This document shows positions 898-21,583 of a stretch of 21,709 nucleotides of DNA, piece after piece (within the stretch, counting starts at the first letter, position 1; each line of letters starts with the position of its first letter). A program made the position numbers and the translations under genes. The notes beneath the pieces were generated by a model. The model made no database searches, had not been told where the DNA came from, and was given only the letters and a program-made list of their open reading frames with translations. The stretch covers positions 1 through 21,709 of the IMG/VR virus record IMGVR_UViG_3300020109_000149; one strand, given 5' to 3'. The stretch is from a virus.

Positions 898-2655
898 GTG
901 ACAAAAGAACAATTAATTATTGAAGTAACGAAGTGTATGAAAAACACTCCGTATGCGATGAGAACCTATCTTCAAACTTTTGACAATACGGTTAAAAAGT
1001 TTGTTCCGTTGGATCTTTTTCCTGATCAAATAACTTTGGTTGAAGACTACGATAACTTTAACGAAAATATTGCATTGAAGTATAGGCAAGCGGGTGTATC
1101 CACCGTGACCGCAGCTTGGGCCTCAAAAAAGTTAGTTTTTGCGAAAAAAAACAACCCTGAGAAAATCTTGATTATAGCAAACAAACTTGATACTGCTGTT
1201 GAGTTTGCTAACAAAGTCAGATCCTTTTCAGAACAATGGCCAGCTTGGGTAGGTGTTGGATTTTCAATAGAAAAAAACTCACAAAGACATTTCAAATTTA
1301 CAAACAATTGTGAAGTAAAAGCTGTTGCAACTTCAAAAGACGCTCTTCGCGGATATACACCAACAATATTAATATTTGACGAAGCCGCTTATATTGAGGC
1401 CGATGATGATTTTTGGGCTGCTTGTATGGCCTCACTTTCAACAGGAGGAAAAGTGATTGTAATTTCCACTCCGAATGGGTATGACCCGATATATTACGAA
1501 ATTTATGAACAATCAATGAGAAACATGAATACTTTCAAGATTACTGAGTTGTTTTGGTATAAAGATCCAAGGTACAATAGGGATTTACAAATGGTGAAGT
1601 GTGAGGATCTTACCGACTATCTATTAAACCGTGAAAATTACAAAAACACAGAAGTTGTTAATTTGGAAGTAGATAATCCGTATGAAAGGAATTATGATAT
1701 AGTAAAAGATTATATTAAAAAGGGTTATAAACCTTGTTCATCATGGTTTGAGGGAATGGTAAAAAAACTTAAATATGACAAGAGAAAAGTAGCTCAGGAA
1801 CTTGAGTGTAACTTCCTTGGATCAGGCGACAATGTATTTGATTCCAATCTTTTAACAAAAATAAAAGATAATGATGTGAAAGAACCCGACGGTAAAATGA
1901 TGGCAGGTAATCTTTGGATATGGAAAGACCCTGAAATGAGTCACCGGTACATCATGGGTGTAGACGTTTCAAGAGGTGACTCAGAGGATTTTTCTTGTAT
2001 ACAAATCATTGATTTTGATGCGAGAGAGCAAGTATTTGAATATGTAGGTAAAACTCCTCCTGACGTTTTAGCAGAAATAGCTTATAAGTGGGGAAAAATG
2101 TATAACGCCATGATAGTCACAGATTTGACGGGTGGGATGGGTGTTGCTACAGCAAGAAAACTACAAGAACTAGGATATAAAAATCTCTATGTTGAAGGAT
2201 TGACAGAGAGAAACAAATACAAGTGGGATCCGAAAAGAGACGAAAAGATACCAGGTATCAACTTCAATGCAAAGAGGGTACAGATAATAGCATCATTGGA
2301 GGAAGCGTTGAGGCATGAATTTAAAATAAGGTCAGAGAGACTCCTAAATGAAATGGGTAAATTTATTTATGTAAATGGTAGACCTGACCATCAAAGGGGT
2401 CATCATGACGATGCATTAATGTCCATAGCAATGGCAATCTATGTTGGGGATACAGCATTTCAAAATTTACAAAAAGTTGTACAACAAACTAAAATTATGA
2501 TAGACTCATGGCATACAGAGCGTAGTGAAAACAAAATAAGATCTGATTTTTTTAATCCACATATTCCTGTTTCAAACAACCAAAATCCAAGATATATTAA
2601 CGAAGCGTCGAGGGAAGACTACAGAAAATACGGGTGGTTATTTGGAGCCAAATAA
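898..2655 (+). CDS. Terminase large subunit (T4 gp17-like ATPase/nuclease)
   Basis: This is the DNA-packaging motor that docks on the portal, pumps DNA with its ATPase and cuts it with its nuclease. The 585 residues match T4 gp17 (610 aa) in length and domain order. The ATPase half shows a Walker A-like loop YRQAGVST at about 62-69, Walker B ILIFDE at 157-162 with the catalytic Glu162, and the coupling motif STPNG at 190-194. The RNase H-like nuclease half shows Asp356 (in MGVDVSRG), Asp409 (in IVTDL) and the HHDD cluster at 502-505. The Walker A loop has Val where Lys normally stands. The start is GTG at 898, 6 nt after the previous stop; the next in-frame ATG (937) would lose 13 residues. 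The portal gene follows after 37 nt. Confidence 0.93.
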   Translation: MTKEQLIIEVTKCMKNTPYAMRTYLQTFDNTVKKFVPLDLFPDQITLVEDYDNFNENIALKYRQAGVSTVTAAWASKKLVFAKKNNPEKILIIANKLDTAVEFANKVRSFSEQWPAWVGVGFSIEKNSQRHFKFTNNCEVKAVATSKDALRGYTPTILIFDEAAYIEADDDFWAACMASLSTGGKVIVISTPNGYDPIYYEIYEQSMRNMNTFKITELFWYKDPRYNRDLQMVKCEDLTDYLLNRENYKNTEVVNLEVDNPYERNYDIVKDYIKKGYKPCSSWFEGMVKKLKYDKRKVAQELECNFLGSGDNVFDSNLLTKIKDNDVKEPDGKMMAGNLWIWKDPEMSHRYIMGVDVSRGDSEDFSCIQIIDFDAREQVFEYVGKTPPDVLAEIAYKWGKMYNAMIVTDLTGGMGVATARKLQELGYKNLYVEGLTERNKYKWDPKRDEKIPGINFNAKRVQIIASLEEALRHEFKIRSERLLNEMGKFIYVNGRPDHQRGHHDDALMSIAMAIYVGDTAFQNLQKVVQQTKIMIDSWHTERSENKIRSDFFNPHIPVSNNQNPRYINEASREDYRKYGWLFGAK

Positions 2656-2692: not shown

Positions 2693-4525
2693 ATGGATAA
2701 TAAGAACCTAACGGTATGGCAACGACTTTCCGCCGCATTTGGACCTAACGCACTCCTTAATCAGGATTACCCGACCTTTCATTTCGACAAAGAAGTTTTG
2801 TTAAAAACACAAGACAAGGCTCAATATGAGAAGGAAAAGTTACAAGCACAACAAACTTTCTATTTATCGAATCAATGGGCAAAAATTGAGAATAATTTGT
2901 ATTCTCAAGCTGTGTATTATGAACCGACTAGATTAGCCTCAGTATACGATTACGAGTCTATGGAGTACACTCCTGAGATATCAGCCGCTTTAGACATATA
3001 TGCTGAAGAATCTACAACCACCAATGAAGACGGATTTATTCTACAAATTTATTCTGAGTCAAAGAGAATCAAAAGTGTCTTAGCAGATTTATTCAATAAC
3101 ACACTTGATATAAACACCAACTTACCTATGTGGACAAGAAATACATGTAAGTATGGTGATAACTTTGTCTATTTGAAATTAGATCCTGAAAAGGGGGTTG
3201 TCGGAGTCCAACAATTACCTAATATTGAGATCGAAAGGGTTGAGGCAGGAATGCACGAAAAAAGAGCTCAATCACTTGAGGATCCTACAGCTCAAAGGGC
3301 ATTACATTTCAAGTGGAAAAATAAGAACATGGAATTCCAATCATGGGAAATCGCTCACTTCAGATTATTGGGTGATGATCGGAAACTTCCATATGGTACC
3401 TCCATGCTGGAAAAAGCAAGAAGAATTTGGAAACAACTTTTACTTTCCGAAGACGCGATGTTAATCTATCGTACATCAAGAGCGCCTGAAAGAAGAATTT
3501 TCAAAGTTTTTGTTGGAAATATGAACGACGAAGACGTTGAAGCATATGTACAACGTGTTGCTAATAAATTCAAAAGAGACCAAGTTTTAGATCAGAAGAC
3601 AGGTAATGTGGATCTCAGATTTAATCAGATGGCTGTAGACCAAGACTACTTTGTACCTGTAAGAGATCCGGCTGCTCCTTCACCTATCGATACTCTACCC
3701 GGTGCTGCGAACCTCGCAGAGATAGCCGACATTGAATATATTCAAAAGAAATTATTGACGGCACTTAGAGTTCCGAAAGCCTTTTTAGGATTTGAAGAAG
3801 TTGTTGGTGACGGTAAAAACCTTTCATTACAAGATATCCGTTTCGCACGCACAATTAATAGAATTCAAAAGAGTATGTTACAAGAGCTGAATAAGATAGC
3901 AATCATACATCTTTTTCTAAACGGATTTGAGGAAGAGATTGCCAATTTCACTTTAGGTTTAACAAATCCATCTACTCAAGCTGATCTTCTGAAAATTGAT
4001 GTTTGGAAAGAAAAAATTCTTTTGTATAAAGATGCGGTGTCCGATCCTGGTAACGGTATTCAACCCGTATCTTCAACATGGGCTAAAAAACATATTTTGG
4101 GGATGTCCGACGATGAAATCAAACTTGACTTACAACAACAAAGAATTGAAAAAGCAGTTGGTGAAGAATTAAAAAATACACCAACAGTAATACAGAAAAC
4201 AGGAATATTTGACAATATAGATAAATTATATGGATCAACAACTGGATCTACCGACACTGCTGGATCAACCCCAAGTGGTGAGGTATCAGAACCTGCGTTG
4301 GGGGCATTACCTTCTGAAACGACACCACCTCCAACTGAAGATGTCGCAGCACCTGAGGTAACAGGACCTGAAGTAGAACCAACAGTACCAGAATCACGAT
4401 TCGACAATATGAATATTTTGGTCGATTCGGACATGATTAAGGGTAAAACAATTTTGGACTTGAGTCATGGCCAACAATATTTAGGAGAAATTGAAAAAGA
4501 GTTAGACGACTTACTAAATTCCTAA
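2693..4525 (+). CDS. Portal protein (T4 gp20-like)
   Basis: This forms the dodecameric ring at the unique head vertex through which DNA enters, and to which terminase and later the neck attach. The 610 residues include the recognisable gp20-type core, with the stretch PKAFLGFEEVVGDGKNLSLQ followed by a helix running through the RFARTINRIQ segment. The protein is longer than T4 gp20 (524 aa). The extra length is mainly at the C-terminus, where about residues 515-568 are a low-complexity Pro/Thr/Glu/Ser tract, followed by a short folded-looking tail ending ELDDLLNS. It starts with ATG at 2693 with no Shine-Dalgarno sequence. It follows terminase directly, whereas in T4 genes 18 and 19 lie between. 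A TATTTATA motif precedes it. Confidence 0.93.
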   Translation: MDNKNLTVWQRLSAAFGPNALLNQDYPTFHFDKEVLLKTQDKAQYEKEKLQAQQTFYLSNQWAKIENNLYSQAVYYEPTRLASVYDYESMEYTPEISAALDIYAEESTTTNEDGFILQIYSESKRIKSVLADLFNNTLDINTNLPMWTRNTCKYGDNFVYLKLDPEKGVVGVQQLPNIEIERVEAGMHEKRAQSLEDPTAQRALHFKWKNKNMEFQSWEIAHFRLLGDDRKLPYGTSMLEKARRIWKQLLLSEDAMLIYRTSRAPERRIFKVFVGNMNDEDVEAYVQRVANKFKRDQVLDQKTGNVDLRFNQMAVDQDYFVPVRDPAAPSPIDTLPGAANLAEIADIEYIQKKLLTALRVPKAFLGFEEVVGDGKNLSLQDIRFARTINRIQKSMLQELNKIAIIHLFLNGFEEEIANFTLGLTNPSTQADLLKIDVWKEKILLYKDAVSDPGNGIQPVSSTWAKKHILGMSDDEIKLDLQQQRIEKAVGEELKNTPTVIQKTGIFDNIDKLYGSTTGSTDTAGSTPSGEVSEPALGALPSETTPPPTEDVAAPEVTGPEVEPTVPESRFDNMNILVDSDMIKGKTILDLSHGQQYLGEIEKELDDLLNS

Positions 4526-4533: not shown

Positions 4534-4546
4534 AAAAAAATTGACC

Positions 4547-5245
4547 ATGACTTTTGGAGAGGTTAAATCCATAATTGAAGAAAGTTTGATTGAATCCTAT
4601 AAAGATTCTGAAAATTTCAAAGGTGTGATGAAAGAATTCCACACTAATATCTTAACTAATAAGTCTCTATCAAAACTGTACTCTTTGTATGATGATCTGA
4701 CTTCTCAAAAGTCTTTGTCCGAAAAAGATGCGAGAGAATATATCGAGGAAGGTATATCTTTGATAAGATCTATATTAAAAGGAGCAAAATTACCAAAATC
4801 TAGCTCTAAACAAATTCAAAATAAATACAAAGATTTGGATACTTTGGTTTACACAAAAAATTTTGATATCTCTGAAAGAGTCTCAGCAAAAAATAATATA
4901 ATTTCAAATTTGACCAAATCTCCAAATGTTTCTAAAGAATCAATCAATCTTCCATTAACATCTATGGTTTCAGTAGCCAATCAGACTTTGAAAAGTTACA
5001 TCGAAACGATGGATGAATCTACCAAAAAAGATTTCTTTAAAATAATCAAATCAAATCAAAATGATTTGGAGAAAGAGTTCACAACCATCAAAGAAAGTGC
5101 TATAAACAAACTTCAAACTCTGTTGGAGGGCGAAAATGAGTTTGAACTTAAGACAAAAATTTCAGAAACAATAGATAGATTAAAGAATGAAGAGTTCAAT
5201 CAGATGAATTTTGTTAGGATTAAATCACTTGAAAAATCAATCTAA
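4547..5245 (+). CDS. Unknown helical protein in the prohead-core position (between portal and protease)
   Basis: This 232-residue, Lys/Glu/Ser-rich, predicted mostly helical protein has no family I recognise. I place the start at ATG 4547; a TTG two codons earlier (4541) is in frame but less likely. Its location between portal and protease is where T4 has the small prohead-core genes 67 and 68. Its N-terminus contains KSIIEESLIES, closely resembling KSIVEEALIQM at the N-terminus of the scaffold protein encoded at 7347. That similarity, plus position, makes a prohead-core or internal-head role a reasonable inference, not a demonstrated one. Its TAA stop overlaps the TAG stop of the convergent bS21 gene. 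Confidence 0.8.
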   Translation: MTFGEVKSIIEESLIESYKDSENFKGVMKEFHTNILTNKSLSKLYSLYDDLTSQKSLSEKDAREYIEEGISLIRSILKGAKLPKSSSKQIQNKYKDLDTLVYTKNFDISERVSAKNNIISNLTKSPNVSKESINLPLTSMVSVANQTLKSYIETMDESTKKDFFKIIKSNQNDLEKEFTTIKESAINKLQTLLEGENEFELKTKISETIDRLKNEEFNQMNFVRIKSLEKSI

Positions 5246-5427
5246 TTATTGATCATTTTTTCTTTGTAAATCGCCTTAAGTTTTTGTGCTCTTTTTTTGA
5301 TTGAAGGTTTAACATATTCTTTTTTTTCAAAAAGTTTTTTTTGTTGTTTTGTTTTTATTACCTTGGATTTCAAGTTTTTGAGAGCTTTTTCAATATTATC
5401 GTTTCTTCCGATTTCAATAATTAACAT
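5242..5427 (-). CDS. rpsU: Phage-encoded ribosomal protein bS21, Bacteroidota type
   Basis: This 61-residue, strongly basic protein has the layout of Bacteroidota bS21: the start MLIIEIG, then NIEKALKNLK, a Lys-rich linker with VIKT, the segment YVKPSIKKRAQ, and KAIYKEKM near the end. bS21 sits on the 30S platform next to the 3' end of 16S rRNA. In Flavobacterium, bS21 with bS18 and bS6 sequesters the anti-Shine-Dalgarno tail; from memory, a Tyr at position 54 is part of that pocket, and this protein has Tyr54. It is the only minus-strand gene inside the head-gene block, and its stop overlaps the stop of the convergent 4547 gene. The upstream region has a sigma70-like TTGTCA-N17-TATATG and a dyad GTCAA-AA-TTGAC. 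Phage bS21 homologues are known from other large phages; the assignment here is by motif recognition. Confidence 0.85.
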   Translation of the reverse strand: MLIIEIGRNDNIEKALKNLKSKVIKTKQQKKLFEKKEYVKPSIKKRAQKLKAIYKEKMINN

Positions 5428-5447
5428 ACTAACATATATTTCAAAAA

Positions 5448-5459
5448 GTCAATTTTGAC
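5448..5459 (-). promoter_or_regulatory. Dyad and sigma70-like promoter upstream of bS21
   Basis: On the minus strand, GTCAA-AA-TTGAC forms a 5-bp dyad around a 2-nt centre. It lies inside a TTGTCA-N17-TATATG arrangement resembling a -35/-10 pair, with TATATG ending 5 nt before the bS21 ATG. That spacing implies a very short or absent leader. The dyad is where an operator could sit. The region is AT-rich, so chance similarity is possible. Confidence 0.3.
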
Positions 5460-5518
5460 AATTATAACCTTTTTTCATAATATTTTAAAAAACAAATAAA
5501 CTTTGTATATGAAAAAAA

Positions 5519-5983
5519 ATGAAGAAAGGAAAAACCTCAAAAATTAATAACTTCGAATCCCTCAAAGTAAATTATGGGACAGTAGATTCAAAAAAATTAA
5601 AATCAATTTACATAAACATACAATCATGGGTCAATCCCAAAATCGTATCTGATAATTGGAATAGAATTGTATGTAATTTTAGTCGAGAAATCAAACACAC
5701 AATTTATTACCAACTTGATAGAAAAATTTTCGAGGACAAATTAATTGTAGATTTGGATCTCAGGACCTCGGGAATCGTATTTGGAAAAAAATCATTCCTC
5801 AATTTGGAAATTAATCTTTTCACTTTACAACAAATAGATTTCAAATCAAATATTATCAGAGACTCAGTAAAAAAATTAGTATCCTTGATAAATTCAGAAA
5901 ACTTTAAAAGTAATAATTATTTTGATTTTACACTAACCAAAAACGGAGATATTATAAAATCAAAGTCAGAAGTATATTTATAG
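5519..5983 (+). CDS. Conserved-looking protein of unknown function
   Basis: This 154-residue Lys/Asn-rich protein has a basic N-terminus (KKGKTSK) and an alternating pattern that suggests a beta-rich fold, with IVDLDLRTSGIVFGKKSFLN near the middle. I do not recognise it. There is no signal peptide or membrane segment. It starts with ATG at 5519, without a Shine-Dalgarno sequence; an ATG at 5509 is in another frame. It sits between the divergent bS21 gene and the prohead protease, and its stop codon overlaps the TATTTATA motif that precedes the protease. It is probably co-expressed with the head genes. Confidence 0.75.
   Translation: MKKGKTSKINNFESLKVNYGTVDSKKLKSIYINIQSWVNPKIVSDNWNRIVCNFSREIKHTIYYQLDRKIFEDKLIVDLDLRTSGIVFGKKSFLNLEINLFTLQQIDFKSNIIRDSVKKLVSLINSENFKSNNYFDFTLTKNGDIIKSKSEVYL
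5975..5982 (+). promoter_or_regulatory. TATTTATA motif upstream of prohead protease
   Basis: An exact TATTTATA that runs into the stop codon of the preceding gene, ending 12 nt before ATG 5995. Its placement across a stop codon, constrained by coding, makes chance occurrence a little less likely. Confidence 0.45.
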
Positions 5984-5994
5984 AAAAAGTTTTG

Positions 5995-6708
5995 ATGAAA
6001 CAATATAAAATACTTGGACCACATGAAACAGGAAAAGGAATTTTGATTGAGGATGATGCTGGATATCTATCTCCATTAGATAAGTTGAATGAATCTATTT
6101 TGAAAGAAGCTCAAGATAGAGACTACAAAAAACCATTCGAATTTTATGCTGTACTCCAAAAATATAATACAGCTAACAGAAATGGAAGATTTTATCCCGA
6201 GACCATACTAAAGAGAGAGGCAGAAAAATATAAAAACACAATCAAAAAAGGACTATCAACTTCTGAATTAAATCACCCTGAGTCTTCGTTAATTGATCTT
6301 GACAGAGTATCACACATAATTACTGACATATGGTGGGAAGGTAATATTTTAATGGGTAAATTAAAATTATTAACATCTCCAGGTTTTCATGAGAGTGGCA
6401 TTGTGTCCACCAAAGGAGATATCGCAGCAAATCTTTTAAGACAAGGAGTCACTATGGGAGTATCATCTCGTGGCGTTGGATCCTTGAAAAAAATAGGGGA
6501 GAGGAATGAAGTACAAGATGACTTCGAACTAATATGTTTTGATCTTGTTTCATCACCGTCAACACCAGGAGCATATTTATTCCCGAATGTTGAAGATAGA
6601 ATGAAATATGAAGAAAATTTAGAGGAGGAGAAAATTACTGAGGTAAAAATTGAAGGAAATAAGTCTATTGATTTAATGAAAAAACTCACCGATTATTTAG
6701 ATAGATAA
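5995..6708 (+). CDS. Prohead core protease (T4 gp21-like serine protease)
   Basis: This 237-residue enzyme matures the prohead by cleaving scaffold and capsid proteins after (L/I)-x-E sites. The T4 gp21/herpesvirus-type protease signature is visible: the catalytic His is His94 in SELNHPE, and the nucleophile lies in GVSSRG, Ser157 or Ser158, preceded by TMGV. The segment FDLVSSPSTPGAYLFP is also typical of the family. The length is close to T4 gp21 (212 aa). I chose ATG 5995; a TTG one codon earlier is in frame but unneeded. It lies upstream of its probable substrates, the scaffold (7347) and capsid (9017), in the same order as T4 genes 21-22-23. Confidence 0.92.
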   Translation: MKQYKILGPHETGKGILIEDDAGYLSPLDKLNESILKEAQDRDYKKPFEFYAVLQKYNTANRNGRFYPETILKREAEKYKNTIKKGLSTSELNHPESSLIDLDRVSHIITDIWWEGNILMGKLKLLTSPGFHESGIVSTKGDIAANLLRQGVTMGVSSRGVGSLKKIGERNEVQDDFELICFDLVSSPSTPGAYLFPNVEDRMKYEENLEEEKITEVKIEGNKSIDLMKKLTDYLDR

Positions 6709-9016: not shown

Positions 9017-10819
9017 ATGGGAGCATTATTAGAATCAGGTCTCGTTGGTAACATCGGTCTTAAGCACCTTAAAGTTATCAAGGAAGACACTATCAACAAA
9101 TGGGACAAATTAGGATTCTTAGAGGGTCTTAAAGGTCACCAAAAGGAAAACATCGCTCAGCTTTTCGAAAACCAAGCATCATATTTGATCAATGAAGCAG
9201 CTACAACTGACTCATCAGGTTCTTTCGAAACTGTAGTTTTCCCAATCGTTAGAAGAGTTTTCTCTAAACTTTTAGCTAACGATATCGTTTCAGTACAAGC
9301 TATGAACCTACCAATTGGTAAGTTGTTCTACTTCGTACCTCACATTCAGAGATATCAGTCTCCGGATGAATTATTACCTACAAATGGTGGTGATCACTAT
9401 GCACCGTTTGGGGCACCTAACGGACCGTCATCACAAAATGCTGGTTACAACCAATACGATAAAGATCTTTATGATCTTTTCTATGAGGGTAACGAACCAG
9501 ATTTGGATCCCCCAGGTCTATTCGATTATTCCAAAGGTACATTTTCGGCAGAGACCATTACAGCTTCTACGCAAGTATGGAATTCTGCAGGAAGTGCTCT
9601 AATCCAATCAGGATACGTTGCAGGTACTTACAGAAAAGTAATCATGGCACTCTCAGGTTTCAACAGTGCAGGTCAAGGTCAATTGATCGGACCAGACGGT
9701 AACGAACAAGATACTGAAGCTTTCTTATCTTCTTTACAAGTTCTTCCAATCACTAATGCAACCGCTAATGGATTCTCAGGTGTTAACTCACCAGTATTAT
9801 TCAGAGTTGTAACTCAGGTTTACGGACAAGGTATTGTACAATACGGTGGACAAGCAACTACTTCATTCCCTTCAACAGGTAATGGTGGATCTTACAACAA
9901 CATATGCGATGCTAATGGCGTAATTTATCTTGAAGCTGATCTTCAAGTTCCTTGTGAAGTAACTTCTTCTTCACTTGATGGTTATTCTGGATTCACTACA
10001 ACAGTGAACACAGACTACAACCAAGCATTCAAGTGTAAGTATAGAGTTTACAAAGAAATGGAATTCGAAGACAGATTGGGTGAGGTTTCTTTCGATCTAC
10101 AGGCTGTAACAGTATCTGTAACTGAAAGAAAACTAAGAGCTCAATGGTCACCTGAATTGGCTCAAGACGTTGCGGCATTCCACAACATCGATGCTGAAGC
10201 TGAATTAACTGCTCTATTATCAGAGCAAGTTGCAGCTGAAATCGATAGAGAGATCCTAAGAGACCTTAGAAAAGGTGCAGCTTGGAACTTAAGATGGAAC
10301 TATAACGGATGGAAGCAATTGGGTAGCAATGCAGTACCTTATACACAAAAGGACTGGAACCAGACGCTTATCACAGCAATCAACCAAATTTCAGCTCAGA
10401 TCCACAAATCAACTCTAAGAGGTGGTGCTAACTGGATCGTTGTATCTTCTGAAATCAGTGCAATTTTTGATGATTTGGAATATTTCCACGTATCAAACGC
10501 GGCTCCTGAGCAAGATCAATACAACATGGGTATTGAAAGAGTTGGTTCTCTTTCTGGTAGATATCAAGTTTATAGAGATCCTTACTTCCCAGCAAACCAA
10601 GTGTTATTGGGTCATAAAGGAACATCATTACTTGACACAGGTTATATCTACGCACCATATGTACCTTTACAACTTACTCCAACAATGTATAACCCATTCA
10701 ACTTCACACCTATCAAGGGTATCATGACTAGATACGCTAAGAAAATGGTTAACAACCGTTTCTATGGTAGAATCACAGTTGATGGAGTTAGAACATTTGA
10801 TTTGAGAGAGTTAAGATAA
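9017..10819 (+). CDS. Major capsid protein (T4 gp23-like)
   Basis: This is the shell protein, 600 residues against 521 in T4 gp23. The N-terminal region resembles gp23: INKWDKLGFLEGL, then IAQLFENQ (T4 has IAKIFENQ), and later VSVQAMNLPIGKLFYFV (T4: GVQPMNSPTGQVFALR). An (I/L)-x-E protease site is visible as LINE at 57-60, followed by AATTD, so the mature protein probably starts at Ala61, close to the T4 cleavage after residue 65. The C-terminal part contains VPLQLTPTMYNPFNFTP and ends RTFDLREL. It starts with ATG at 9017, 29 nt after the scaffold stop, in a purely A-rich leader without a Shine-Dalgarno sequence. Codon choice looks more GC-flexible than in neighbours, as expected for a very highly expressed gene. 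A strong terminator follows. Confidence 0.95.
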   Translation: MGALLESGLVGNIGLKHLKVIKEDTINKWDKLGFLEGLKGHQKENIAQLFENQASYLINEAATTDSSGSFETVVFPIVRRVFSKLLANDIVSVQAMNLPIGKLFYFVPHIQRYQSPDELLPTNGGDHYAPFGAPNGPSSQNAGYNQYDKDLYDLFYEGNEPDLDPPGLFDYSKGTFSAETITASTQVWNSAGSALIQSGYVAGTYRKVIMALSGFNSAGQGQLIGPDGNEQDTEAFLSSLQVLPITNATANGFSGVNSPVLFRVVTQVYGQGIVQYGGQATTSFPSTGNGGSYNNICDANGVIYLEADLQVPCEVTSSSLDGYSGFTTTVNTDYNQAFKCKYRVYKEMEFEDRLGEVSFDLQAVTVSVTERKLRAQWSPELAQDVAAFHNIDAEAELTALLSEQVAAEIDREILRDLRKGAAWNLRWNYNGWKQLGSNAVPYTQKDWNQTLITAINQISAQIHKSTLRGGANWIVVSSEISAIFDDLEYFHVSNAAPEQDQYNMGIERVGSLSGRYQVYRDPYFPANQVLLGHKGTSLLDTGYIYAPYVPLQLTPTMYNPFNFTPIKGIMTRYAKKMVNNRFYGRITVDGVRTFDLRELR

Positions 10820-20030: not shown

Positions 20031-20777
20031 TTAAATTTTCAATTTAGATTGGGTGAAAAGGTAGAGTCTCTTAAATCGTTTTATTGCACTTCTAATCTCT
20101 TTTGTACTCAAATTTGTCATTTCCCTGAGTGATAGTAATATCACATTTTTATTAAATTTGTTGTTGTCAGCGCCTGAGAAAATCAATTCGTAGTTCTCAA
20201 ATATATCTATCAAAGCATATCCGAGTTTCTGTTCGTTATCACTCAGAGACTCTGAATCCATAAACAATTTAAGATCATTGATATATTTTTTTATCAATCC
20301 CTCTACGTCTGAAACGTCGTCATCGATTCTATAAATCAAATCTGGTCTTTGTTCAAGAGATGAGGAAATGTCCTCATAACTCACCTTTCTATTAGTTTCT
20401 TTTTGGTCCTTGATTATTTGGCCCATTAGATAATTCTTACATATCGTACCGAAATAAGAATAAGCCTTTTTGTTTTTTGCGGGCTTGAATTTGTCCACTT
20501 TCGTCATTAAAAACGAATGTGTGTCGACATGGATTTCAACAAAATCCATGTCTTTACGATACAATCTATATCGTCTGATTATTGACGAAATCATCTTATC
20601 GAGAGGAGCCCGTAAGTATTCGTTGTAAATTTTGTTTTTTTCCTGCCACGTTTCAGCGACGAGGAAATTTCGAACCGCTGTTTCTTCTCTTACATCGAAA
20701 TAATTTTCTTTGACTGTTTTTCTACCTCTTTTTTTTGATAGTGTTTCTTCTGTTTGACCAGAAAGAATCTTGATCAT
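20031..20777 (-). CDS. Late-transcription sigma factor (T4 gp55-like)
   Basis: This 248-residue protein probably directs host RNA polymerase to phage late promoters. Residues about 52-125 resemble sigma region 2: YLRAPLDKMISSIIRRYRLY, a conserved-looking HSFLMTKVDKF, then AYSYFGTICKNYLMGQIIKD, comparable to the region 2.3/2.4 pattern A-Y-x-x-x-I-x-K-N in gp55-type factors. A C-terminal helical part with LREMTNLSTKEIRSAIKRFK (about 213-236) could be a second DNA- or polymerase-binding helix. T4 gp55 is 185 aa. The N-terminal 40 residues are basic. It overlaps the upstream glycosyltransferase gene as TAATG. The likely target is the TATTTATA motif found before several genes here; that link is inferred. 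Confidence 0.82.
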   Translation of the reverse strand: MIKILSGQTEETLSKKRGRKTVKENYFDVREETAVRNFLVAETWQEKNKIYNEYLRAPLDKMISSIIRRYRLYRKDMDFVEIHVDTHSFLMTKVDKFKPAKNKKAYSYFGTICKNYLMGQIIKDQKETNRKVSYEDISSSLEQRPDLIYRIDDDVSDVEGLIKKYINDLKLFMDSESLSDNEQKLGYALIDIFENYELIFSGADNNKFNKNVILLSLREMTNLSTKEIRSAIKRFKRLYLFTQSKLKI

Positions 20778-21583
20778 TATTCATTCGTTGTTTGGTATTT
20801 TATTGACCTATCGTCAACGAAGAAATATTCTTTTTTGGCGGTTTGTAGCCAAAATCTAACTTCGTCATCTGTAAGAATTGATTCTCCATTCTTATAATTC
20901 CAAAATATTGAACCCTCTCTTAAGTTTGTGTGCTTGTATCCTAATCTTGGAATAGACATAATTGTAACCGAATTATATGTCATTCTGAGTAAGAACTCAT
21001 AGATAAACGTAAGTTTTATTGAAGATTTGAATCCACCAAAGTCTTGAATTGAGTTTTTTCTCAAAACCATACCTGATGTTTGGAAGTTTGTGTAATCATT
21101 GAGTGTTTCATTTGTTAGATACCCCATTTCTTGAGAGAAGTTTGCCGCAAAAGAAGCTTCATTTGTAAATCCTTGGAACACTCCTTTATCATTCGTATCT
21201 ACAACGATTGGGAGAAATGCATCAACATTAGGGTACGCCTTCATGTATTTTGCAACATTCTTGAACCATATAGAGGAATACTCATCATCGAACTCAAAAA
21301 AAGACACCCAAGGGTTCTTGGCTTTTTCTACACCATAATTTACTTGAGAGCAAAAATTGGGTTCTTTCTCCCATACGTATTTGTTCACGTTGAGATCACC
21401 AAAGTCGTAGGAATCTAATACTTTTATAAGAGATTCCTCTTGAGTGTGAACAATAATTAACTCATCTATAGGTAATTGTTGATTCTTTAGAGATTGAATT
21501 GCTTTACCAAAAAATTCTGAGAAATCTCTAACAACTGCGGACTTTATAGGTAGTATAATCGAAACATTTAATTTTTCTGACAT
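20777..21583 (-). CDS. Family 2-like glycosyltransferase
   Basis: This 268-residue protein has a GT-A fold of the GT2 type. It opens with NVSIILPIK, followed by a helix and AIQSLKNQQLPIDELIIVHT, the usual nucleotide-sugar binding half. The metal/sugar motif appears as FFEFDDEYSS at about 115-124, with a DDE in place of the classic DxD. The acceptor half includes FQTSGMVLRKNSIQDFGGF and ends with YKHTNLREGS. Known roles of phage glycosyltransferases include DNA base modification and virion glycosylation; nothing here decides between them. It starts 2 nt after the stop of the partial gene on its right and overlaps the sigma factor gene, so it is in the same operon. Confidence 0.85.
   Translation of the reverse strand: MSEKLNVSIILPIKSAVVRDFSEFFGKAIQSLKNQQLPIDELIIVHTQEESLIKVLDSYDFGDLNVNKYVWEKEPNFCSQVNYGVEKAKNPWVSFFEFDDEYSSIWFKNVAKYMKAYPNVDAFLPIVVDTNDKGVFQGFTNEASFAANFSQEMGYLTNETLNDYTNFQTSGMVLRKNSIQDFGGFKSSIKLTFIYEFLLRMTYNSVTIMSIPRLGYKHTNLREGSIFWNYKNGESILTDDEVRFWLQTAKKEYFFVDDRSIKYQTTNE

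Follow-up and report, generated by a model that had tools for sequence, protein, structure and literature searches.

An antisense bS21 gene in the head cluster of T4-like phages keeps Tyr54 and has no extended Shine-Dalgarno sequence

In Flavobacterium johnsoniae, mRNAs without a Shine-Dalgarno (SD) sequence are initiated normally only when the ribosomal protein bS21 is present (PMC9976891). The host gene, rpsU, carries an extended SD that is read by ribosomes lacking bS21, and both this autoregulation and the effect of the Y54A substitution have been published (McNutt et al. 2023, PMC9976891). Phages can encode bS21 as well. Chen et al. (2022, PMC9723584) described jumbo myophages of Bacteroidetes, falling into clades a-e, in which a reverse-strand bS21 gene sits in the head cluster between two hypothetical genes, flanked by the large terminase (TerL), portal, prohead protease and major capsid protein (MCP) genes, and in which Tyr54 (or another aromatic residue) is retained next to a divergent N-terminal helix. 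Metatranscriptomes in that study showed the phage bS21 expressed with structural genes, late in infection; the authors predicted Bacteroidetes hosts, proposed that the protein serves a takeover of host translation, and raised its packaging into virions as a possibility (PMC9723584). The main text of that paper does not deal with promoters, terminators, leaderless mRNAs or tmRNA, discusses SD sequences only in general, and makes no statement on a missing SD, a start-adjacent element or a bS21-less clade (PMC9723584). A further precedent, the bS21 of pelagiphage HTVC008M, is likewise phage-encoded but differs in its alphaproteobacterial origin and non-Bacteroidota host, and in that its incorporation was shown experimentally: it entered Escherichia coli 70S ribosomes, which were then nearly inactive (~5% activity in vitro; Mizuno et al. 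2019, PMC6375957).

The window analysed here is a stretch of 21,709 nucleotides from a viral metagenomic record (IMG/VR IMGVR_UViG_3300020109_000149). This large virus of predicted Bacteroidota hosts is also present in IMG/VR as a 149-kb contig (L003/G001), in which the 12-kb locus is identical apart from noted exceptions. Between positions 97 and 10819 every gene lies on the plus strand save bS21, and Pfam identifies a T4-like head cluster (Table 1), which marks the window as coming from a T4-like myophage. The arrangement agrees with what the first-pass annotation had described, a bS21 gene antisense to the head genes, alone on its strand and sharing overlapping stop codons with its neighbour: the TAA of gene X (5243-5245) overlaps the TAG of bS21 (5244-5242) by 4 nt. 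Family searches with genes X and Y, Pfam and PHROGs among them, gave no confident match; gene X occupies what we take to be the site of the prohead core genes in T4. Towards the far end of the window, a glycosyltransferase family 2 protein is encoded at 20777-21583 on the minus strand (PF00535, E 1.1e-9), and a candidate late sigma factor at 20031-20777 on the same strand was set aside, its phrog_234 match (E 0.009) being too weak for use.

Table 1 Features of the bS21 locus and of a related contig (window coordinates unless a contig is named)
Feature	Coordinates	Strand	Remarks
Large terminase (TerL), T4 type	898..2655	+	PF03237, E 1.1e-12
Portal protein, T4 gp20 type	2693..4525	+	PF07230, E 3e-81
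Gene X (portal-bS21 interval), conserved uncharacterised protein	4541..5245	+	Convergent with bS21
Phage bS21 gene	5242..5427	-	61 aa; ATG start, TAG stop; ORF reading 5427->5242
AT-rich element abutting the bS21 start codon on its 5' side	5428..5439	-	Candidate -10/-7 element; sense ATATATGTTAGT
TTTGAC, -33-like box of the putative gene Y promoter	5454..5459	+	Opposite side of the shared bS21-Y intergenic region
Gene Y, conserved uncharacterised protein	5519..5983	+	Divergent from bS21
Prohead protease, T4 gp21 type	5992..6708	+	PF03420, E 4.7e-25
Major capsid protein (MCP), T4 gp23 type	9017..10819	+	PF07068, E 9.8e-71
tmRNA	L162:19243-19665 (G001 contig 119243-119665)		RF00023, 85 bits in G001

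Profile searches bear out the proposed identity of the antisense ORF. Pfam PF01165 (Ribosomal_S21) matched residues 4-56 with 39.1 bits (cut-off 27; E 6.2e-10), the PHROGs collection's own S21 family matched with E 1.8e-4, and the NCBIfam equivalog TIGR00030 reached 28.4 bits, about 0.5 bit below its cut-off of 28.95. In the PDB the top matches were the F. johnsoniae bS21 (7jil_z, E 1.3e-07) and another bS21, 9i5v (E 1.2e-06). The phage protein probably shares the fold family of the former and its C-terminal helix, and its Tyr54, which had been picked out beforehand from the sequence, aligns exactly with the F. johnsoniae Tyr54. An AlphaFold model built from 25 sequences places helices at residues 12-25, 28-35 and 41-60 (mean pLDDT 84, pTM 0.42), and the PDB top matches of this model in a fold search were bS21 chains, at a non-significant level (E 0.3, TM 0.62). 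The ORF is not a chance reading frame, since it has 86 unique full-length relatives with a median pairwise dN/dS of 0.18 (70 usable, non-independent comparisons), a value by which the phage bS21 is under purifying selection. Window positions 5242-5427 on the minus strand are thus confirmed as a genuine phage bS21 gene with Tyr54.

The assignment to the Bacteroidota type also held up. In a tree with host proteins (outgroup, an E. coli sequence entered by hand), the phage proteins formed one clade nested among Tyr54-type Bacteroidota bS21 (SH-aLRT 93, from an alignment of only 64 columns), and by this placement the phage bS21 is of Bacteroidota origin. Position 54 is Tyr in 77 and His in 9 of the 86 unique full-length phage proteins; in the sample from the host phylum, 24 proteins have Tyr or His there and 17 others have Arg. 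What sets the phage proteins apart from F. johnsoniae bS21 and the other hosts is the block spanning residues 16-28, in which a phage-specific, near-invariant LKSKVIKTKQ segment (L19, S21, V23, I24, K27 and Q28) is not found in hosts. All 86 phage proteins have K27 and Q28, residues that are uncommon or absent in hosts, and Chen et al. independently noted divergence of phage bS21 at positions 21, 23, 25 and 28 (PMC9723584).

We gathered 150 related loci from two scans of viral contigs. Where both flanking genes are present, an antisense bS21 lies between X and Y in 123 of 126 loci with no exception in position or strand, and the convergent 3' ends of X and bS21 overlap by 4-9 nt in 117 of these 123. 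The gene is missing from three loci (L124, L125 and L137), whose X-Y gap holds, by inspection, a terminator-like hairpin followed by a T-run; bS21 was not found elsewhere on these partial contigs (9.6 to 47.7 kb). In the portal tree the three loci group with two undetermined relatives in a single clade (support 100) that branches from within the bS21-bearing phages, and the bS21-less clade therefore reads as a single secondary loss. The earlier description of the gene as "inserted" is accordingly misleading for this lineage, since nearly all relatives share the site and the few without the gene look like secondary loss. The outgroup phages of Chen et al. likewise lack bS21 (PMC9723584). Two further loci, L066 and L068, carry bS21 with no head genes of the phage family detected nearby.

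A search of genome contigs with the phage bS21 returned only Pedobacter and one Phycisphaerales locus, and no prophage; in a phage collection the matches were limited to four huge phages from metagenomes, at ~50% identity and with E values of 0.03 or worse. Among cultivated Bacteroidota phages, the nearest by its portal (38%) is Flavobacterium phage immuto (MW353175), which has the same T4-like head order and no antisense bS21 between its portal and protease genes. Five contigs were also searched for phage versions of bS6 and bS18, the other proteins of the pocket, and neither turned up.

We then compared translation signals, scored as the longest exact SD match, between the phage genes and a host set in which 56 of 91 bS21 genes had been recovered from a sample of Bacteroidota genomes, 24 of them with Tyr or His at position 54. 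A match of at least 7 nt occurs in 12 of these 24 host genes versus 0 of 80 unique phage upstream regions, where the longest is 6 nt, and AGGAG is found in none of the 80. The extended SD of the autoregulation type, present in F. johnsoniae rpsU (PMC9976891), is a feature of many host genes rather than of the protein family, and the phage gene does not have it. Synthesis of the phage protein should consequently be independent of the host's feedback loop, and we infer that the phage bS21 escapes host autoregulation.

In place of an SD, the sequence directly upstream of the ATG contains an AT-rich element that reads GATATTTGTAATAT in relatives and is degenerate in the window. Of the 80 unique intergenic regions, 59 contain the motif TAT[TA]T[TGA]TA (9 expected), and in 49 of the 80 it ends 4-5 nt before the ATG; TAnnTTTG, which is like the Bacteroidota -7 box, occurs in 14 (3.5 expected). 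The element resembles both this host box and TATTTATA, a sense-strand motif found upstream of many structural genes, in the window before 4541, 5992, 6979, 7347 and 10887. Upstream of genes in G001 the latter motif occurs 23 times in sense and 3 times in antisense, and for gene X it is found in 34 of 64 cases; the motif is a candidate late promoter. A position weight matrix of TATTTATA gave the bS21 upstream regions no score, partly as the element abuts the ATG and so falls beyond the scanned stretch; for this reason direct counts were used for the bS21 element, and no identity between the two motifs is claimed. In F. psychrophilum the -7 box spans -12 to -5, and leaderless transcripts make up only 5.5% of mapped mRNAs (PMC9723704). 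Read either as a -7 box or as TATTTATA, the element would put the transcript start a few nucleotides from the ATG, which suggests a near-leaderless bS21 mRNA.

The first-pass annotation had credited the gene with its own promoter-like region, and this stands as far as conservation across relatives goes, the element being degenerate in the window itself. An alignment of relatives gave no conserved -33 box for bS21. GTCAAA was tried as its -35 box and rejected: it is the TTTGAC of the divergent gene Y, is kept in the bS21-less relatives and lies at variable spacing from bS21. TTTGAC is present in 79 of the 80 unique intergenic regions, with TAnnYTT at a fixed spacing of 20 in 60, so that in the relatives gene Y appears to have a clear sigma-A-like promoter; in the window this predicted promoter spans 5454-5486 and its -7 part is imperfect.

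Of 14 related contigs tested for a tmRNA gene (RF00023), 8 exceeded the cut-off of the family, and each of these 8 also carries bS21 (Table 1; the further ones are L257, L258, L259, L260, L261 and L262). ARAGORN predicted similar tags (GNTFAKMSALGLMREASVVAA and variants) in 5 of the 7 contigs run, gave a different tag for L260 and found no tmRNA gene in L261; SmpB was not found in the 8 tmRNA-bearing contigs. On L163 (G001 120001-140000) ARAGORN predicted 11 tRNA genes, including two each for Trp and Ile(gat).

Taken with the published expression data, these observations favour a reading to which we assign a probability of about 0.62, namely that a selectively maintained phage bS21, made with the structural proteins and independently of feedback, enters the 30S subunit, keeps the anti-SD sequestered and alters the path of the mRNA. 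The protein would enter host 30S subunits late in infection, in place of or beside host bS21, and its C-terminal helix with Tyr54 would keep the 16S rRNA 3' tail sequestered, as in the host, so that ribosomes would stay in an SD-blind mode suiting SD-less phage mRNAs. The non-host block 16-28 would change the mRNA-facing part and is the likeliest seat of any preference for phage mRNAs. As ribosomes fill up with phage bS21, host rpsU should be translated less. For the protein of the window, we infer both incorporation into ribosomes and an mRNA preference; that host bS21 is replaced and translation thereby reprogrammed is a plausible idea, and one already in print as a hypothesis (PMC9723584, PMC6375957, PMC9976891). 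Counting against such a takeover, one clade of close relatives, seen on partial contigs, lives without bS21. A more specific version takes the phage gene as a feedback-free rpsU, in which a near-leaderless late mRNA with no extended SD, with host rpsU off, would make ribosomes phage-type late in infection, the tmRNA being a second translation-directed gene; this we put forward tentatively, as possible though improbable in full.

Among the alternatives, the one that survives best is that extra host-like bS21 simply completes new or damaged 30S subunits late in infection, with specificity unchanged. The conserved Tyr54 and C-terminal anchor fit this well, as does the need of F. johnsoniae for bS21 in normal SD-less initiation (PMC9976891), but a near-invariant non-host block at 16-28 is unexpected if only the host function is kept, and we consider the idea unlikely. 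The same block, strongly unlike that of hosts and facing the mRNA, would suit a protein that enters ribosomes and mainly inhibits initiation on host mRNAs, with no redirection to phage mRNAs. Phage bS21 may indeed be a poison, since that of HTVC008M left E. coli ribosomes ~5% active (PMC6375957); that test, however, used a foreign host, and in related phages bS21 is expressed late, alongside structural genes whose own translation requires active ribosomes (PMC9723584), which leaves such a shut-off quite unlikely.

That the gene is perhaps expressed early had been suggested at first, and a host sigma-A promoter would be the natural source of such timing. The resemblance of the upstream element to the Bacteroidota -7 box speaks for it, as does the clear sigma-A-like promoter of divergent gene Y, but the element is also like TATTTATA, bS21 has no conserved -33 box, and late co-expression with structural genes is published (PMC9723584), so that early timing is not supported and seems distinctly improbable. 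Finally, a non-ribosomal role, as a small basic protein in the capsid or an RNA-binding regulator whose function is reflected in its head-cluster position, would account for the conservation of that position and accords with the virion packaging raised by Chen et al. (PMC9723584), but all ribosome-binding features of bS21 are kept, Tyr54 included, and we regard it as very improbable indeed.

The bS21 arrangement itself was already known, having been published in 2022 by Chen et al.; what is added here is a conserved start site without the host feedback signal, one bS21-less clade and a conserved tmRNA, details that sharpen the test of the takeover hypothesis. Bacteroidota ribosomes hide their anti-SD tail with bS21, and it is by way of this tail that the hosts regulate bS21. 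A phage that supplies bS21 free of the regulatory signal would offer a natural experiment in specialised ribosomes, and would allow a direct test of the published takeover hypothesis in a Flavobacterium laboratory strain.
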